Source: Prasinococcaceae sp. CCMP 1430 (Eukaryota > Prasinodermophyta > Palmophyllophyceae > Prasinococcales > Prasinococcaceae). From it: 58,912 bases of DNA. A program made the position numbers and the translations under genes. This document shows, in pieces, positions 17,090 through 46,152 of this stretch. Position 1 is the first letter of the stretch; each line of letters starts with the position of its first letter. The DNA lies in assembly GCA_013416795.1 (NCBI GenBank), contig RQSC01000998.1:2663-61574 (forward strand), in the 5' to 3' direction. The notes below the pieces were generated by a model. That model had not been told where the DNA came from. It was given only the letters and a program-made list of their open reading frames with translations, and searched no databases.

Positions 17090-17114
17090 GGCATCAAGGC
17101 AGGGTACACTACAA
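17090..17114. repeat. 25-bp direct repeat, copy 1
   Basis: A motif beginning ggcatcaaggcagggtac and ending acaa. It recurs at 17370-17394. Copy 1 directly abuts the second 130-bp repeat. Confidence 0.9.
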
Positions 17115-17244: not shown

Positions 17245-18135
17245 GGTGAGAACGACGAAACGCGCGACGCGCGCGTTGGGTGGGTGGGTAGGGCCCGATA
17301 TTGCGGTGCGGCCTGACAGCAGCATTTTAGATCAAAAATTTTCAGTGTTTACCGTAAAAGTGACTTTCAGGCATCAAGGCAGGGTACACTACAATGTAAC
17401 ATACGTCAGCGGCGCAGGTGCCCGCCTCGTACCACTGCAAGCCCTTATCTCCGCGCGATCCGCCGCGCACGCGCAAACCCTAAAGAGCGCCCACAACCCG
17501 AATGTATGACCGAAACTCCATGCCTTTGCACCATTGCTGAGCCCTCCGAGGCACGCGCCTTGAAGGCTCTGGCAAACTGTTTTTTCCCCAAATGGCTGTG
17601 CCAGCTGGCGCGGAGCGGCTCTTTCCGTGCACGGACGTTGCTGGGACGCCCGTGGGAGGACTCGAAGAGGGGTTCGAGCGGCCGCCGCCGGCCGCCGCGG
17701 CGCTGCCATCGTGCGGCGACAAAGACGAGCTCCGAGCGGGAGAGCATCCACGTGCCGCAAGGTCTGATGGTGGCATTTCATCCAGTCCAAACAATTGCAT
17801 GCAGCGCACGCCCCCTCGCGAGGCGACGTCGAAAATTCCGTGGGACGGCGGCAATGCCTGCCGGATCGCGACCGCCCGACCGTTGCTTGCTCATCGGGCG
17901 TTCGCGTTTGGTGAGGGTCCTGAGCACCAGTTCCTACACACGTTGTGTGTGGGGTGGTGGCAGCGCGCTGGCGCGCGACGGGAGCGCGGCGGGCACACGG
18001 GGCGCGGCTGGCGCGCCCGGGCAGGGGACCGGCGCGGGCCGAGGCTGCCTGCATCTGGAAAGCGGGGCGGCCGTGCCTCCAGTCTCTGTCGCGGAGGCGG
18101 CGGGGGATGGGAGGTCCGCGTGCGTGGGGCCCGCC
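17245..18135. other. Upstream region of the inhibitor gene
   Basis: About 890 bp of partly AT-rich sequence (17315-17400), then a GC-rich 5' flank. The frame is open upstream of the inhibitor ATG from 17506, but the residues before the signal peptide are not protein-like. It probably holds the promoter and 5' UTR. Confidence 0.4.
17370..17394. repeat. 25-bp direct repeat, copy 2
   Basis: Second copy of the 25-bp motif. It follows an AT-richer patch (about 17315-17360, including atcaaaaattttcag) that contrasts with the surrounding GC-rich DNA. Confidence 0.9.
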
Positions 18136-20679
18136 ATGCCGTCGCCGCGCGCGCGCCCGCTCGGCGCGCCGCGTGGCTTTTTTCTGGGCGCGGCGGCTTG
18201 GACGCTGCTCGCCGGCGCACTCCTCCCCGAGGTGCTGGCAGGGCGCGCTCTGATGGAGGCGGAGAAGCCCGCGCCTGCCCCCGAGTTTGAGGAGGGCTGC
18301 ACCCTCACCGGCGGAGAGTTCGTCCCCGTCGGCTGGTCGGGCATGGACACCGGCTCGAACGCTTGCAATTCGTGTGTTTGCGGTGCTCCGGAGCTCATGG
18401 CGTGCACTCTCGCCTTGTGCGGCGGTCGCAGACTGAGCGAGGCTCATGCGACGGAGGCGGAGAAGCCCGCGCCTGCGCCCGCCATCGAGGAGGGCTGCAC
18501 CCTGACCGGCGGCGAGTTCGTCCCCGTCGGCTGGTCGGGCGAGGACACCGGCTCAAACTGGTGCAATGCCTGTACATGCGGTGCTTCAGAGCTCATGGCG
18601 TGCACTATCGCCTTCTGCGGGCCCCAGCCCGACGGCGAAGGCGACGACAACACAAACGCCGACGATGAGGGCTGCACGCTGACCGGCGGTGAGTTCGTCC
18701 CCGTCGGCTGGTCGGGCAAGGACACCGGCTCAAACTGGTGCAATTCGTGCATATGCTCCAAGCCAGATGTAATGGCGTGCACCCTCGCCTTCTGCTTCCC
18801 CCAGCCCGATGGCGATGGCGACGGCGACGCAAACGCCGACGATGAGGGCTGCACGCTGACCGGCGGCGAGTTCGTCCCCGTCGGCTGGTCGGGCGAGGAC
18901 ACCGGCTCGAACTCGTGCAATTCTTGCGGATGCGAAGGCCCGGAGCTCCTGGCGTGCACGGACGCCTTCTGCGGCCCCCAGCCCGATGGCGATGGCGGCG
19001 GCGACGCAAACGACGACGATGAGGGCTGCACGCTGACCGGCGGCGAGTTCGTTCCCGTCGGCTGGTCGGGTAAGGACACAGGCTCGAACTCGTGCAATTC
19101 TTGCGGATGCGAAGGCCCGGAGCTCCTGGCGTGCACGGAGGAATTCTGCGCCAGGCGCAGACTCCAGCAGGACGCAGAGAAGCCCGCCCCCGCCCCCGCC
19201 CTGGACGAGACAGGCGAGACAGAGTCGCTGGGGGCGGAAGAGGGCTCGTGTACCCTCGACGGTGGGGAGATCGTCCCAGATGGCTGGTTTGGAAAAGGCT
19301 CGAGCTTCAACTGGTGCAATGATTGCCGGTGCGTCAATGGCGTCCAACTTTGCACGAAGAAATTCTGCGGCGAGGAGGACGCTGGATCGAAACCTATGAA
19401 GAGGCGCGCGGCTGCTCGCCGGCACCTGCTTGACTCCGGAGCCCGCGGCGCCCGCAAGCTCTTGTCGCACGCATCCATCTGCCTCTGTCCCGAGGTAGCT
19501 GGGGATGCCAGGGTGTGTGGGAGCGACAACGTCACGTACCAGAACGCGTGCTGGCTCGTGTGCCTAGGACACAGCAACGACGTGACCCTTCAGAGCGCAG
19601 GGCCGTGCCCAGTGAATACGCCCGAACCCGAGCGCCCGACGCATCTTCTGCTGAACTTCACCGACCCGTTTCCAAACCCGACCGATGACTCAGCCCCTAC
19701 CGTCCAGCCCGCCCCTGGGCCCCTTCCTGCCCCGGCACCGCTGGCTGCCGCGGCTGTGGGGGAAGCCGAGGAAGCGCTCAGCGCTGTGTCCGTCAACGAG
19801 GACTTGGCATCGTCGTCCAACGAGCAGGCTTCCTCATCCGCCGGTGCAGGCGGTGCTCCCAAGTGCACCCTGGCCGATGGCTCCACCGTGGACGTAGGCT
19901 TCAAAGGCAATGACCAGCCCCCCAACGACTGCAACTTTTGCACATGTCAAATGGGGCCTGATGGCCCGGTCCTTGCGTGCACGGAGATCGCCTGCAGCGT
20001 CGGAGATCAAGGGGCGCCCGACCCCAACGGCGACGTGACAAACTCAAGCGGTGGATCCGACGATGCGGACTGCACCTGCATCCTGCTCTGGGACCCCGTG
20101 TGCGGTGACGACGGAAAGACGTACTCAAACGACTGCTTCGCCACCTGTGATGGCAAAACGTCCGTCGCATCACGCGGAGCGTGCCCGGACGACACGTCCG
20201 ACGACGCGGACAAGGACATTGACGAGTGCATATGCACCCTGCTTTATGACCCCGTATGCGGTGAGGATGGAAAGACGTACGGGAATGAGTGCTTCGCCAC
20301 CTGTGATGGCATTGCTGTCGCATCTCCCGGAGCGTGCCCGGACGACACGTCCGACGACGCGGACTGCGCGTGCATCGAGCTCTGGGACCCCGTATGTGGT
20401 GACGACGGAAAGACGTACTCAAACGACTGCTTCGCCACCTGTGATGGCAAAACGTCCGTCGCATCACGCGGAGCGTGCCCGGACGACACGTCCGACGACG
20501 CGGACAAGGACATTGACGAGTGCATATGCACCCTGCTTTATGACCCCGTATGCGGTGAGGATGGAAAGACGTACGGGAATGAGTGCTTCGCCACCTGTGA
20601 TGGCATTGCTGTCGCATCTCCCGGAGCGTGCCCGGGCGACACGTCGATCGCGGCGGCGGAGCCTGCCCCGGGAGACTAA
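18136..20679 (+). CDS. Secreted multi-domain serine-protease inhibitor: seven pacifastin-like and five Kazal modules
   Basis: A single exon encodes 847 residues; ATG 18136 opens a signal peptide (FFLGAAAWTLLAGALLPEVL core). Seven modules of the form C-x(n)-CN-x-C-x-C-x(n)-CT-x3-C lie at residues about 55-95, 121-161, 180-220, 239-279, 298-338, 372-411 and 577-620. This is the pacifastin light-chain cysteine pattern, with a longer first loop than in insects. Kazal modules (DPVCGDDGKTYSNDC pattern) lie at about 449-491 and as four tandem copies from 646 to the end. Acidic Asp/Asn linkers and EKPAPAPA spacers separate modules. By homology, P1 residues in the pacifastin units are L, I, L, D, E, K, E. 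In the Kazal units they are E, L, L, E, L. That suggests a multi-headed inhibitor of chymotrypsin/subtilisin-like, trypsin-like and Glu-specific proteases. The long loop leaves the pacifastin name provisional; VWC-like is the alternative. Confidence 0.88.
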   Translation: MPSPRARPLGAPRGFFLGAAAWTLLAGALLPEVLAGRALMEAEKPAPAPEFEEGCTLTGGEFVPVGWSGMDTGSNACNSCVCGAPELMACTLALCGGRRLSEAHATEAEKPAPAPAIEEGCTLTGGEFVPVGWSGEDTGSNWCNACTCGASELMACTIAFCGPQPDGEGDDNTNADDEGCTLTGGEFVPVGWSGKDTGSNWCNSCICSKPDVMACTLAFCFPQPDGDGDGDANADDEGCTLTGGEFVPVGWSGEDTGSNSCNSCGCEGPELLACTDAFCGPQPDGDGGGDANDDDEGCTLTGGEFVPVGWSGKDTGSNSCNSCGCEGPELLACTEEFCARRRLQQDAEKPAPAPALDETGETESLGAEEGSCTLDGGEIVPDGWFGKGSSFNWCNDCRCVNGVQLCTKKFCGEEDAGSKPMKRRAAARRHLLDSGARGARKLLSHASICLCPEVAGDARVCGSDNVTYQNACWLVCLGHSNDVTLQSAGPCPVNTPEPERPTHLLLNFTDPFPNPTDDSAPTVQPAPGPLPAPAPLAAAAVGEAEEALSAVSVNEDLASSSNEQASSSAGAGGAPKCTLADGSTVDVGFKGNDQPPNDCNFCTCQMGPDGPVLACTEIACSVGDQGAPDPNGDVTNSSGGSDDADCTCILLWDPVCGDDGKTYSNDCFATCDGKTSVASRGACPDDTSDDADKDIDECICTLLYDPVCGEDGKTYGNECFATCDGIAVASPGACPDDTSDDADCACIELWDPVCGDDGKTYSNDCFATCDGKTSVASRGACPDDTSDDADKDIDECICTLLYDPVCGEDGKTYGNECFATCDGIAVASPGACPGDTSIAAAEPAPGD
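20065..20652. repeat. 294-bp tandem duplication encoding a Kazal pair
   Basis: Two units (20065-20358 and 20359-20652) are nearly identical. The visible differences cluster at the start of the unit around the first Kazal reactive loop and at the very end. The duplication looks recent. Confidence 0.92.
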
Positions 20680-42136: not shown

Positions 42137-45100
42137 CTAGGAGGCTTGCCTCATCGATGGCTGCTCCGCCTCCGCCGATCCTGCGGTCTCTGCGGGCACC
42201 AGCGGCGGCGGCGGCTGCAGCACCTGCTCGGTGGAGCCCGCAGCAGTCGCCTGCGCGTCCGCGCCACCTGAGGAGTCCTTGACTTTGCCACGACCGAACG
42301 TGCAGCAGCCCCTCTTAGGTTCGGGCGACACGGGCCCCTCCTGGGCCGGTGTTGGAGCGGCCTGCGCCGCCGCGTCCCCGCCGCTGGCCGCCTCGGCCGG
42401 TGCAGGCGCAATCCCGTCGCTCGAGTGATGGCTCCGCGCGTCGCTCCCATCGCGCTGCTGTGACTTGCGTTGCGTCGCGCTCCACGACTCGTCCGGCGCG
42501 TCGCCTGAGTCCGTCGATACCGGCAGCTCGGGCTCCTCGTGCACGTCACCGGCAGCGACGGCCTGCCGGAGTTGCGCTTCGAGCGAGCCCTGCATCTGCT
42601 CTTTCTGCGCTGCGAAGGCGTCGGGTGGGGGCACCTTGTGTCCGAGCGAAGCGTACCACTTGTCGAAGGCGTCTTGTTCGAAGTAGACCTTGGCGGCGTC
42701 GATGTTGTCGCTCTCAAGGAAGAAGTCGCCAACCTCGTGCGCGATGTCGTCGGAGGCAGCAAAGTCAACGCCGGTGAGGCCCTCCAGGCGCGCCATCATC
42801 TTCATGCCATCTCCGGCGGCAACGGACGAGCCGAGGAGATCAATGCGCCCGCCGGGGGCAACGAGCTGCGACAGGTCCTGCCAGAAAGCCCGGACGCCGG
42901 GCACGGCCTTGAGTGTGTCGATGTCCGTGCGAAATCCTTTGGTGAGCACGATCGTCGCCGCCTTGCTGTTCGTCACGAGAGCCAGAGACTCCACGGGCGA
43001 GTCGTTCAGCTTGGTGCGAATTGCGTGCAGCAGGCCAGCGGGCGTGGTCCTGTTGAACTCATAGGTGAAGCACCCGCACTCGTGGCTCTTGAGCGCAAAC
43101 GCCGGAACCTCGTCGTGTCCAACGCGCGATGAGATGACCATCAGGCGCTTCCAGCCTCCTGGCGGGGCGTCGTCGCCGTTCACCGCGGGAGTGCCCTTGG
43201 GCGCCTCCCCCAGAGGCGGCAGCTCGCGCTTCCAAGATGGCGCAGCCGCGGCGCTCGCCTTGATCGCGGGCGCGGCCGAAGCCGGGCCAGCGGGCAGCGG
43301 AAGTGTGGGGAATGGTACGGCCGCCGCGCCGCGTCCGAGGCCCGCGCCCGAAATGGCGCCATTCCCAGGCTGTGCGCCTCCAAGCACGCCGGGAGGGAGC
43401 TGCGGGGGCATCGCACCGAGGGGGGCGAGCGCAGGCAGGCGACTACCTTGAGCGACCAGTTGCCTCCGCGCACCCAGCGGGACCGCGCGCGACGTAATGA
43501 GCGCCTTCACATCCGCGTACGCCACGGCGCCTTGGTTGAGCTTGTCGCAGGCGGCCATGCGCACCAGCCAAAGCCGCACGTCCTTCTTGGTACAGTTGGG
43601 CCTCAGGGACCGGAAGACTGCGACCATCTGGGGATAGTCGCACATGCCATCCTTGTCCGCGTCGTAGTGGTCGAAGGCGCGCTTGAGCACTCCGCGAAAT
43701 TGCTCCAGGGTCTCAGATAGCCCACGCAATGTCACCTCGCCAGCTGAAAGGTCCTCGTCTTCCTGCACGGTCAGAGCGGGGTCGTGGACCTTGCGATGCA
43801 GCTCGGAGCAAGCTCGCAGAGCCTCCAGCACACCGCGCTGCGTCATGCCTGCTCGGACCGTGCCGGTCGGCGGGGGGCGGCCGTAGTCGTAGCCGGTGGT
43901 CCCAGCCTTGGCCAGGCGCTCGACGCCTTCCGCGTAGGCACCCTCGACGTCAAGCATCGCCTTGAAGTACGCCAGCTGCGCCGCGGAGATGTCCTGCACG
44001 GCGGTGCGCCCGAGTGTGCCGATCTCGGCATAGCCCAGCGTGCCGTCCTGATTAGTGTCGAATGTGCGCAGGAGGAAGAAGTCGTCTTTGGTGAGCTGGA
44101 TCTGGGCTTTCAGCCACGTGCGCGCTCGCTTGAAGACATTCTCGGACGCGGCCTTTTCGATCTTGGCCTTGGCGATCCTCAAGAGCTCCTCTGGGGACTC
44201 GCTTCGGCGCGCGCGCTCCACGGCGGCCTTGTCGCTCTCTGCAAATTGTTTCGCGATGCCGGCGCCCATGGGCCCAACGCGCTCGAAGTACTCGCGCAGC
44301 TCGGCAAGCGAGAGCGCGCCGTCGCCGTCGGTGTCGACCTCTGCGAGATTCGCGAGCAAGTATCGCATCTCGGTCGCATCGAGCGCGGGCAGCAGCGTGG
44401 AGAACAGGTCTCTGAGCTCCTTGGCGTCGAGCGTACCGTTCCCGTCTTTGTCAAATTGGTTGAAGACGGCTTGTGCCGTCGTGCTCTCCGCAGTGACGAA
44501 GTGCGCGAGCCGCGACATGAGATCAGACACGCGCACCACGTCCTCGTCGCCGTCGGCGAGCGCGTCAGCCGAGCGCAGCTTCTCCGACATTGCCTTGCCG
44601 CTCTTGAGGGCCGAGCTGAACTCGCTGGCGCTGATCTCGCCGTCCCCGTTTACGTCGCAGATGACGCAGAAGTAGCGCAGCTCTCTGTCGGTGATGGTTG
44701 GCTCGATTGCCTCCATCATGCGCTCTATCTCCGCCATCGACAGCTGGCCATCGGCGGACACCCCCCCTTTGTCAAAACGCTGGAAAAGGGCCTGCACCGT
44801 GGTGTCATTCTTCTCGATGTACTTGAGCACAATGGAGAAGATGTTGCGGTCACCAGGCCTTGCCGTAATGAGCGGCCGGTGCCTTTGCGTCAGCGTGGAG
44901 TCACCCTGAGCCAGCGCTGCTGGTGGTTGGGCTCCCGCTGGGGCCGACGCAGCAGCAGGCGGCGCGAGCTGTGTCGCTGGTAGGCCGCCAGCGTATGGCG
45001 GCGGCGGCGACTGCAGCGCCGCGAGCTGCTGCTGCTGCTTCTGCAGGGCCTCCTGCTGCTGCGCAAGGAGCATCTGCTGCTGTTGCGCCTGCTGCTGCGC

Positions 45101-46152
45101 TTGCGCTTGCGCCATCGCCATGGCGGCCGCCTGCGCCTGCATCTGCTGCTGCTGCACCTGCACCTGCACCTGCATCTGCATCTGTTGCTGTTGCTGTTGC
45201 TGTTGCTGCGCGGCGGCCTGCATCTGTGCCTGCGGCTGCTGCGCGGCGACTGGTGCCGCGGGCGACGATTGGGGAGCGCTCAGCGAGGACGCCCAGGCCC
45301 CGCCCTGCTGTTGCTGTTGCAGCTTCTGCTCGGATGCGGACGTCACCGTGGGAGAGCTCGGAGCGGAGCGTGCCACTTTCTGCTCTTTGATGTAGCTACG
45401 CAGCTCTGCAAGAGACACCTTTCCGTCCCCGTCGACATCCAGTTCGTGCACGCGCTGCATGAGGTATCGCAGCTCCATCTGATTGAGCCCCGGACACGCG
45501 TGCTTGAAGAACTTGACGATCTCCAGTCCCTCGAGCTGCCCGTTGCCGTCCGCGTCGAACTTCTTGAATATCTCCGCGACGCTTTGCCCTGTGCTCTCCA
45601 TGTTCTGTCGAAGGCGGCGGATGATGTCGTCCACACGCACGACGTCCGCGTCGCCCGCGGCGCTCGGGTCCGCCTTTCGGTCGCCGGCTTCGGCCATGAC
45701 TGCGCCACGCACGGCCCGCGTGAACTCTTCCAGGCTAACTTCGCCGCTGCCGTCGATGTCCACCATCAGCATGAAGTGCCGAAGCTCCCTGTCAGTGATG
45801 GTCGGCTCGATGAACTCCATCAGGCGCTCGAGCTCCTGGCAAGCATCAGGTGTGGGGCAGTAAGTAATGGTGGTCAGCGCCGGCGCGGATGGTGCGCCGC
45901 GCCTCTTGCACGCGACTAGGCATCGCAATCAGAGCCGCCCCTCTGTGCGCACGCGCTCGCTCGCTCGCTCACCTGGGTGCTGAGCTTGCCATCCGCGCGG
46001 CCCATCTTGTCGAACTGCGCGTACAGCTGGCTGGCCGAGCGGTCGGTGCTATCAAGGTGATCTTGCACGCGCTTGAAGATGTTGCGGTCCCGCACGCCGC
46101 TGCTGTCACCGCCGGACACTCCCGGCGCGGCGGCCATCCTTGGCGACTGCAT
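42137..46152 (-). CDS. Multi-EF-hand protein with C-terminal DUF4347-like domain
   Basis: Two exons, 46152-45973 and 45835-42137, join in phase 0 (donor gtgagc, acceptor gatgcttgccag), giving 1292 residues. About ten EF-hand loops are visible. Canonical ones include DIDGSGEVSLEE, DADGNGQLEGLE, DVDGDGKVSLAE, DVNGDGEISASE, DKDGNGTLDAKE and DTDGDGALSLAE. The first four form a module (from RDRNIFKRV) that is repeated once (from GDRNIFSIV) after a long Gln/Met/Ala linker; further EF loops lie at FDTNQDGTLGYAE and YDADKDGMCDYPQ. After a Pro/Ala linker, 43160-42700 matches DUF4347 (SRVGHDEVPAFALKS, then IDLLGSSVAAGDGMKMMARL and EGLTGVDFAASDDI), a domain mostly known from bacterial surface proteins. 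No signal peptide is seen at the chosen start. A Ca2+-responsive role is inferred from the EF-hands only. Confidence 0.85.
45020..45320. repeat. Trinucleotide-rich region coding for a Gln-rich linker
   Basis: Imperfect ctg/ttg (CAG/CAA on the coding strand) runs encode Gln/Met/Ala/Val-rich linker sequence between the two EF-hand modules. It is probably length-variable. Confidence 0.8.

Follow-up and report, generated by a model that had tools for sequence, protein, structure and literature searches.

A twelve-module gene joining pacifastin-like and Kazal units in a photosynthetic eukaryote of probable green lineage

One frame carrying two inhibitor families

Analysing the window, i.e. the whole stretch of 58,912 nucleotides under study (GC content 68.5%), we found on its forward strand a gene at positions 18136-20679 that encodes seven pacifastin-like and five Kazal modules behind a hydrophobic leader; all features of the gene given below lie on this strand. 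The coding sequence is a single uninterrupted frame of 847 codons plus stop and is free of N, whereas the window as a whole has 685 N bases. The frame is open further upstream, up to an ATG at 17506, and the ATG at 18136 is the last one before the leader. From the N-terminus, pacifastin units 1-6 are followed by Kazal 1, a stretch rich in proline and alanine, pacifastin unit 7 and Kazal 2-5; all 72 cysteines of the protein lie inside these modules (7x6 + 5x6). The leader (residues 1-36; 18136-18243) has the hydrophobic core FLGAAAWTLLAGALL and a V-L-A ahead of the likely cut, and the hydropathy of the whole protein peaks within it, at residue 16 (1.89 versus 1.61 at best elsewhere), which supports the signal peptide claimed in an earlier sequence-only reading of this DNA. 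The leader is probably a secretion signal and the protein is probably secreted. Dibasic pairs are located after pacifastin units 1 and 5 and ahead of Kazal 1, where the linker at 19369-19479 carries KRR, RR and RK; judged by motif, these are candidate processing sites.

A Pfam-A hmmscan of the whole protein, listed to E<=10, returned five families. Among them were Pacifastin_I (PF05375, the pacifastin family, which we take to be MEROPS I19) with E=3.9e-18, 65.3 bits versus a cut-off of 27.9 and seven stretches, Kazal_2 (PF07648) with E=1.9e-31, 108.3 bits versus 22.8 and five stretches, and Kazal_1 (PF00050) with E=1.5e-27, 95.8 bits versus 21 and five stretches. Thus, the claim that one protein holds seven pacifastin-like and five Kazal modules stands, with both families far above the Pfam cut-offs. 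No VWC model was among the five families, and the VWC alternative, named beforehand as one that would speak against an inhibitor, did not materialise at the sequence level.

The seven pacifastin-like units, identified by Pfam and cysteine pattern, share an Asn right after Cys2, a Thr right after Cys5 and a Cys5-x-P1-P1'-x-Cys6 loop with four residues between the two cysteines (7/7 in each case). Assigning P1 by this loop rule, taken from a survey of 2026 (PMC13388995), gave the P1-P1' pairs L-A for unit 1 (18298-18420), I-A for unit 2 (18496-18618), L-A for unit 3 (18673-18795), D-A for unit 4 (18850-18972), E-E for unit 5 (19027-19149), K-K for unit 6 (19249-19368) and E-I for unit 7 (19864-19995). 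When the units were scored singly in a six-frame scan, unit 6 alone exceeded the Pacifastin_I cut-off (32.1 bits), units 1, 2, 3 and 5 reached 21.9-26.3 bits, and units 4 and 7 had no listed match. A structural model of unit 5 (mean pLDDT 89.4) was closest, among pacifastin structures, to 4djz_I (1.3 Å), 1gl1_J, which is PMP-C on chymotrypsin (1.4 Å), and 7sap_B (1.5 Å), over 31 residues including the reactive loop.

Each of the five Kazal units, matched by Pfam, singly exceeded the PF07648 cut-off, and their sequence matches in the PDB were leech tryptase inhibitor, ovomucoid and rhodniin. With the second cysteine taken as P3 (PMC1236909), P1 is E in Kazal 1 (19480-19608), L in Kazal 2 (20071-20184), L in Kazal 3 (20227-20337), E in Kazal 4 (20365-20478) and L in Kazal 5 (20521-20631). 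The P1 series read earlier, L, I, L, D, E, K, E for the pacifastin units and E, L, L, E, L for the Kazal units, is therefore correct by the family rules. The Asn at P15', a Kazal feature (PMC1236909), keeps its standard distance in Kazal 2-5 (4/5) and lies two residues further on in Kazal 1, in keeping with the insertion of that unit between Cys2 and Cys3.

Tandem duplication, loop divergence and a shorter variant

Tandem Repeats Finder revealed a 177-bp array of 3.8 copies with 87% matches over pacifastin units 2-5 (18486-19150) and, for a Kazal pair, a 294-bp tandem duplication in two copies with 97% matches (20056-20645). It had been proposed that near-identical modules differ at P1; this holds for pacifastin units 1-5, whose closest unit in the window is at 0.80-0.93 identity, but not for unit 6 (0.56) or unit 7 (0.45). 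Of the duplicated Kazal units, Kazal 5 is identical to Kazal 3, and Kazal 4 is a copy of Kazal 2 in which the differing codons are four at the start, at or beside the reactive loop. The DNA of the two pairs is identical throughout codons 657-735, and before codon 657 they differ at 647 (P4), at 650 (P1, Leu to Glu by two base changes) and silently at 655 and 656, the remaining differences being in the end linker at codons 736 and 739-741. A loop difference of this kind is seen once, between Kazal 2 and 4, and exchange with another Kazal unit could explain it equally well.

Comparing the variable columns of pacifastin units 1-5, we found a ratio of amino-acid-changing to silent columns of 1:7 in the N-arm and of 9:1 in Cys4-Cys6 (Fisher p=0.003), a contrast that leaves out the middle columns 21-28 (3:1). 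The ratio of amino-acid-changing to silent polymorphism (pN/pS) rises accordingly from 0.10 in the N-arm to 0.29 in the middle and 0.71 in Cys4-Cys6. The contrast between N-arm and Cys4-Cys6 is real; 0.71 is no proof of positive selection, and given that pN/pS in these units was nowhere above 1, selection for change is not demonstrated.

Three protein searches, one of which contributes its best 120 of 858 matches, yielded 192 distinct proteins, among which the arrangement of the window protein is common to P0001 only. This protein of 690 aa, from an ENA environmental contig of 5827 bases, represents the same gene in near-identical form, with an unchanged leader and family order and ten substitutions outside two gaps. 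It is shorter by one pacifastin unit (59 residues; unit 4 by alignment) and one Kazal pair (98 residues), and its own Pfam scan gave six Pacifastin_I and three Kazal stretches. A precomputed label for PF23334 (VWC2L_2nd) is attached to P0001, whereas our scan of it at E<=10 shows none. One of the ten substitutions, I158V, is at P1 and turns the pair of unit 2 into V-A, as chance can do. The difference in length stems either from naturally varying unit numbers or from repeats that collapsed during assembly.

Host genome, neighbouring genes and relatives

The genome searched comprises 24.5 Mb in 145 contigs, with the window on contig 4, and was searched exon by exon, so that split genes may escape. 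All five pacifastin matches found genome-wide were in this gene, as were five of the seven Kazal matches; the other two were below cut-off. The chlorophyll a/b-binding family has 22 matches in the genome, so the host is photosynthetic. A 757-aa frame at L016 1108-3381 on the reverse strand joins a 3-hydroxyanthranilate dioxygenase, by HAAO family match, to an N-terminal part whose translation reads as kynureninase-like. A kynureninase-HAAO fusion is described for the green alga Prasinoderma coloniale, whose assembly has 25.3 Mb and 69.8% GC (PMC7455551), and the fusion in the present genome points to that lineage, with Prasinoderma or a close relative as the likely host. NadA, whose pathway is reported for P. 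coloniale (PMC7455551), had no candidate in the genome, which split exons or incomplete assembly could explain.

At E<=0.001 the host's own proteases amount to 16 Trypsin and 10 Peptidase_S8 matches, counted per exon and hence corresponding to fewer genes. On contig 32, at about 104715-110780 on the reverse strand, Trypsin and S8 matches are clustered, and those at 104715-105059 and 105729-105914 lie in frames that are both 736 aa long; this may be a fusion of trypsin and S8 or a cluster of mixed proteases. Of the 14 frames scanned in the neighbourhood of the inhibitor-like gene, 8 have a Pfam match, and DENN, Torsin, ubiquitin hydrolase, UbiA and multi-EF-hand are among these. A 1263-aa frame at 42137-45928 of the window (reverse strand) has strong EF-hand matches and reads as a large calcium-binding protein. 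A 25-base word stands in two identical copies a short way upstream of the gene, at 17090-17114 and 17370-17394, 280 bases apart; with 13 copies genome-wide including these two (8 forward and 5 reverse, versus none for the reversed control) it is an uncharacterised interspersed repeat.

Units in the relatives were counted by our own cysteine patterns, which 72 of the 192 proteins match for pacifastin, many of them lacking a PF05375 label. The patterns miss other spacings, and P0002 (1383 aa) therefore counts only six units; the Kunitz units of P0133, P0134 and P0147 also escaped them. P0001 was excluded from the P1, glycine and spacing counts, which cover 120 units. In 53 single-unit relatives, P1 is K in 38, E in 9, R in 4, Q in 1 and L in 1 (K/R in 42/53); in 18 multi-unit relatives with 67 units it is mixed (K 14, L 14, R 11, E 9, M 9 and ten others). 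The sources include MMETSP (P0142, P0191) and EukProt (P0152, P0189), and P0142, P0189 and P0191 fit the pacifastin pattern. In genome contigs, 4 of 29 pattern stretches were confirmed as bacterial relatives (L017-L020), all in metagenome-assembled genomes, at 59-66% identity to the algal units over one unit; three of these genomes are labelled Dehalococcoidia/Chloroflexi and one Rhodospirillaceae. A viral origin or viral relatives found no support, none of 30 pattern matches in viral contigs being confirmed by tblastn.

Both families occur together in seven of the 192 retrieved proteins by our patterns, and PF05375 and Kazal share one chain by Pfam label in five, i.e. P0001, P0093, P0133, P0134 and P0147. 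Two further candidates were rejected: in P0057 Pacifastin_I scores 23.7 bits, below cut-off, and VWC scores better, while P0168 matches the pattern without a Pacifastin_I match in the Pfam scan. P0003, like P0057, matches VWC.

Candidate function and comparison with known systems

The reading that we favour, and hold to be fairly probable, is that the protein is a secreted, multi-headed canonical ('standard mechanism') serine protease inhibitor. Once the leader is cut off, every unit, pinned by its disulphides, would offer a rigid loop, Cys5-Thr-P1-P1'-x-Cys6 in the pacifastin units and Cys-x-Cys-P2-P1-P1' in the Kazal units, to the active site of a protease in the manner of a slow substrate. 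The six units with a hydrophobic P1 (L, I) would be directed at chymotrypsin- or subtilisin-like targets, the one with K at trypsin-like targets and the five with an acidic P1 (E, D) at Glu-specific or permissive subtilisin-like enzymes. An acidic P1 need not mean Glu-specific proteases only, and Glu pairs are among the dominant ones in molluscs and non-metazoans (PMC13388995). Cutting at the dibasic linkers may release smaller inhibitors from the chain. The main targets would be external proteases, e.g. algicidal enzymes of the subtilisin family, such as AlpA1, a subtilisin-like protease that is an algicidal factor of the marine bacterium Kordia algicida (PMC10565126).

Several observations weigh against this reading. 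Glycine occurs somewhere in the Cys4-Cys5 loop of 6/7 units, unit 3 having none, but unit 6 alone has it among the last four residues, joined by unit 7 if five residues are counted. In units 1-5 the residue four before Cys5 is Glu or Asp, whereas 112 of the 120 units of the relatives have Gly within the last four. Because the glycine ahead of the reactive loop, present in nearly all relatives, is missing there, inhibition by units 1-5 is plausible rather than secure. Furthermore, fibronectin-I/VWF modules reach the same Z as pacifastin structures against the unit 5 model, and the Cys2-Cys3 loop of Kazal 1, two residues longer than in the other four Kazal units, renders its P1 less certain. An alternative, to us rather improbable, is that only the Kazal units, perhaps with pacifastin units 6-7, inhibit, and that units 1-5 kept the fold for a structural or binding role and lost the inhibitory loop. 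Such a role would fit the lost hinge glycine, the fold shared with fibronectin-I/VWF modules, and a very conserved N-arm next to a less constrained loop half. Points against loss of the inhibitory loop are the P2 Thr and the Asn after Cys2, retained in 7/7 units, and the model of the Glu-bearing unit 5, which is still close to inhibitor structures.

The broad shield against proteases of bacteria, viruses or grazers suggested in the earlier reading is at present a conjecture. An inhibitory protein could also act on its own host, whose trypsin and subtilisin families are possible targets besides outside proteases. That its role is to restrain the alga's own secreted or vacuolar proteases of these families, e.g. 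in matrix remodelling rather than in defence, is unlikely in our judgement; in its favour are the Trypsin and Peptidase_S8 matches in the same genome (16 and 10) and the association of long-arm pacifastins with matrix-associated proteins (PMC13388995); the acidic and mixed P1 residues seem better suited to many targets than to one. It is highly improbable that the gene is an artefact, be it a frame open by chance, wrongly assembled repeats or DNA from a contaminant. The length of the array could reflect assembly, P0001 lacking one pacifastin unit and one Kazal pair; on the other hand, two curated families score far above cut-off, changes in conserved columns are silent, a near-identical protein comes from a separate data set, and more than half of the neighbouring frames scanned (8/14) match Pfam.

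On top of the favoured reading, a secreted multi-headed inhibitor, we tentatively consider, as a doubtful extension, that the gene evolves as a repertoire. Unequal exchange would add and remove whole units while the unit frames stay uniform and the reactive loops are renewed, providing strain-specific protease 'keys' in a race with the extracellular proteases of algicidal bacteria, and the pacifastin would be one of the green plant lineage. If so, the view of pacifastins as missing from the plant lineage would be overturned, and the lineage would gain a mixed pacifastin-Kazal inhibitor. If active, the protein would constitute a natural inhibitor panel of twelve pre-varied loops and a handle on whether microalgae withstand algicidal proteases.

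The survey of 2026 searched plant and archaeal proteomes for pacifastins and reported no validated candidate (PMC13388995); words starting alga, Viridiplantae, Chlorophyta or protist are absent from its main text, and pacifastin is unmentioned in the main text of PMC4189545. Judged by titles and the openings of abstracts, no paper on algal pacifastins turned up, among papers on dinoflagellates or phytoplankton either, in the literature covered, which lay mostly outside subscription journals. Given the outcome of the survey and of this search, a pacifastin from a photosynthetic host of probably green lineage seems to be unreported in the literature searched. An intact seven-unit pacifastin in such a host, together with single- and multi-unit relatives from transcriptomes and metagenomes, alters the known distribution of the family. 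The suggestion that a pacifastin-Kazal mix would be new in an alga thus holds for the lack of an algal report, while the mix itself is not unique (5/192 retrieved proteins); Kazal and Kunitz are named as partners of ancestral pacifastins in a figure legend of the survey (PMC13388995), and the mixture as such is already known.

The units of the window resemble the 'ancestral' long-N-arm pacifastins (PMC13388995) in their six cysteines, Cys2-Asn, Cys5-x-P1-P1'-x-Cys6, long Gly-containing N-arm, tandem arrangement and variable P1. They differ from them in a Cys1-Cys2 spacing of 21, versus 13-20 for the extension in that class (102 of the 120 units of the relatives also have 21), in the missing hinge Gly of units 1-5, in the five added Kazal units and in a photosynthetic host of probable green lineage. 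The metagenomic proteins P0133, P0134 and P0147 likewise join pacifastin and Kazal in one chain by Pfam label, but with 2-4 pacifastin and 1-2 Kazal units by our pattern and with Kunitz (PF00014), taken from the Pfam label, as well. The Kazal half, judged by sequence, is ordinary for green algae, since Kazal proteins named from Edaphochlamys, Gonium, Volvox, Chlamydomonas and Tetradesmus were among the matches listed, six of them with 3-5 pattern matches, and multi-Kazal algal proteins are known, with up to 10 Kazal in one V. carteri protein (PMC4189545). Those of Volvox, Edaphochlamys, Gonium and Tetradesmus have several Kazal units per chain, as here; the named green algal proteins among the matches listed carry no PF05375 label, whereas the window protein has seven pacifastin units besides. 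Among microbial Kazal proteins, oomycete EPI1, a subtilisin-family protease inhibitor, has two Kazal domains, of which one holds two disulphides (PMC1236909), and oomycete EPI10 is said to counter subtilisin-family proteases (PMC5411025); unlike for the window protein, pacifastin units are not mentioned for either in the available parts of these papers.
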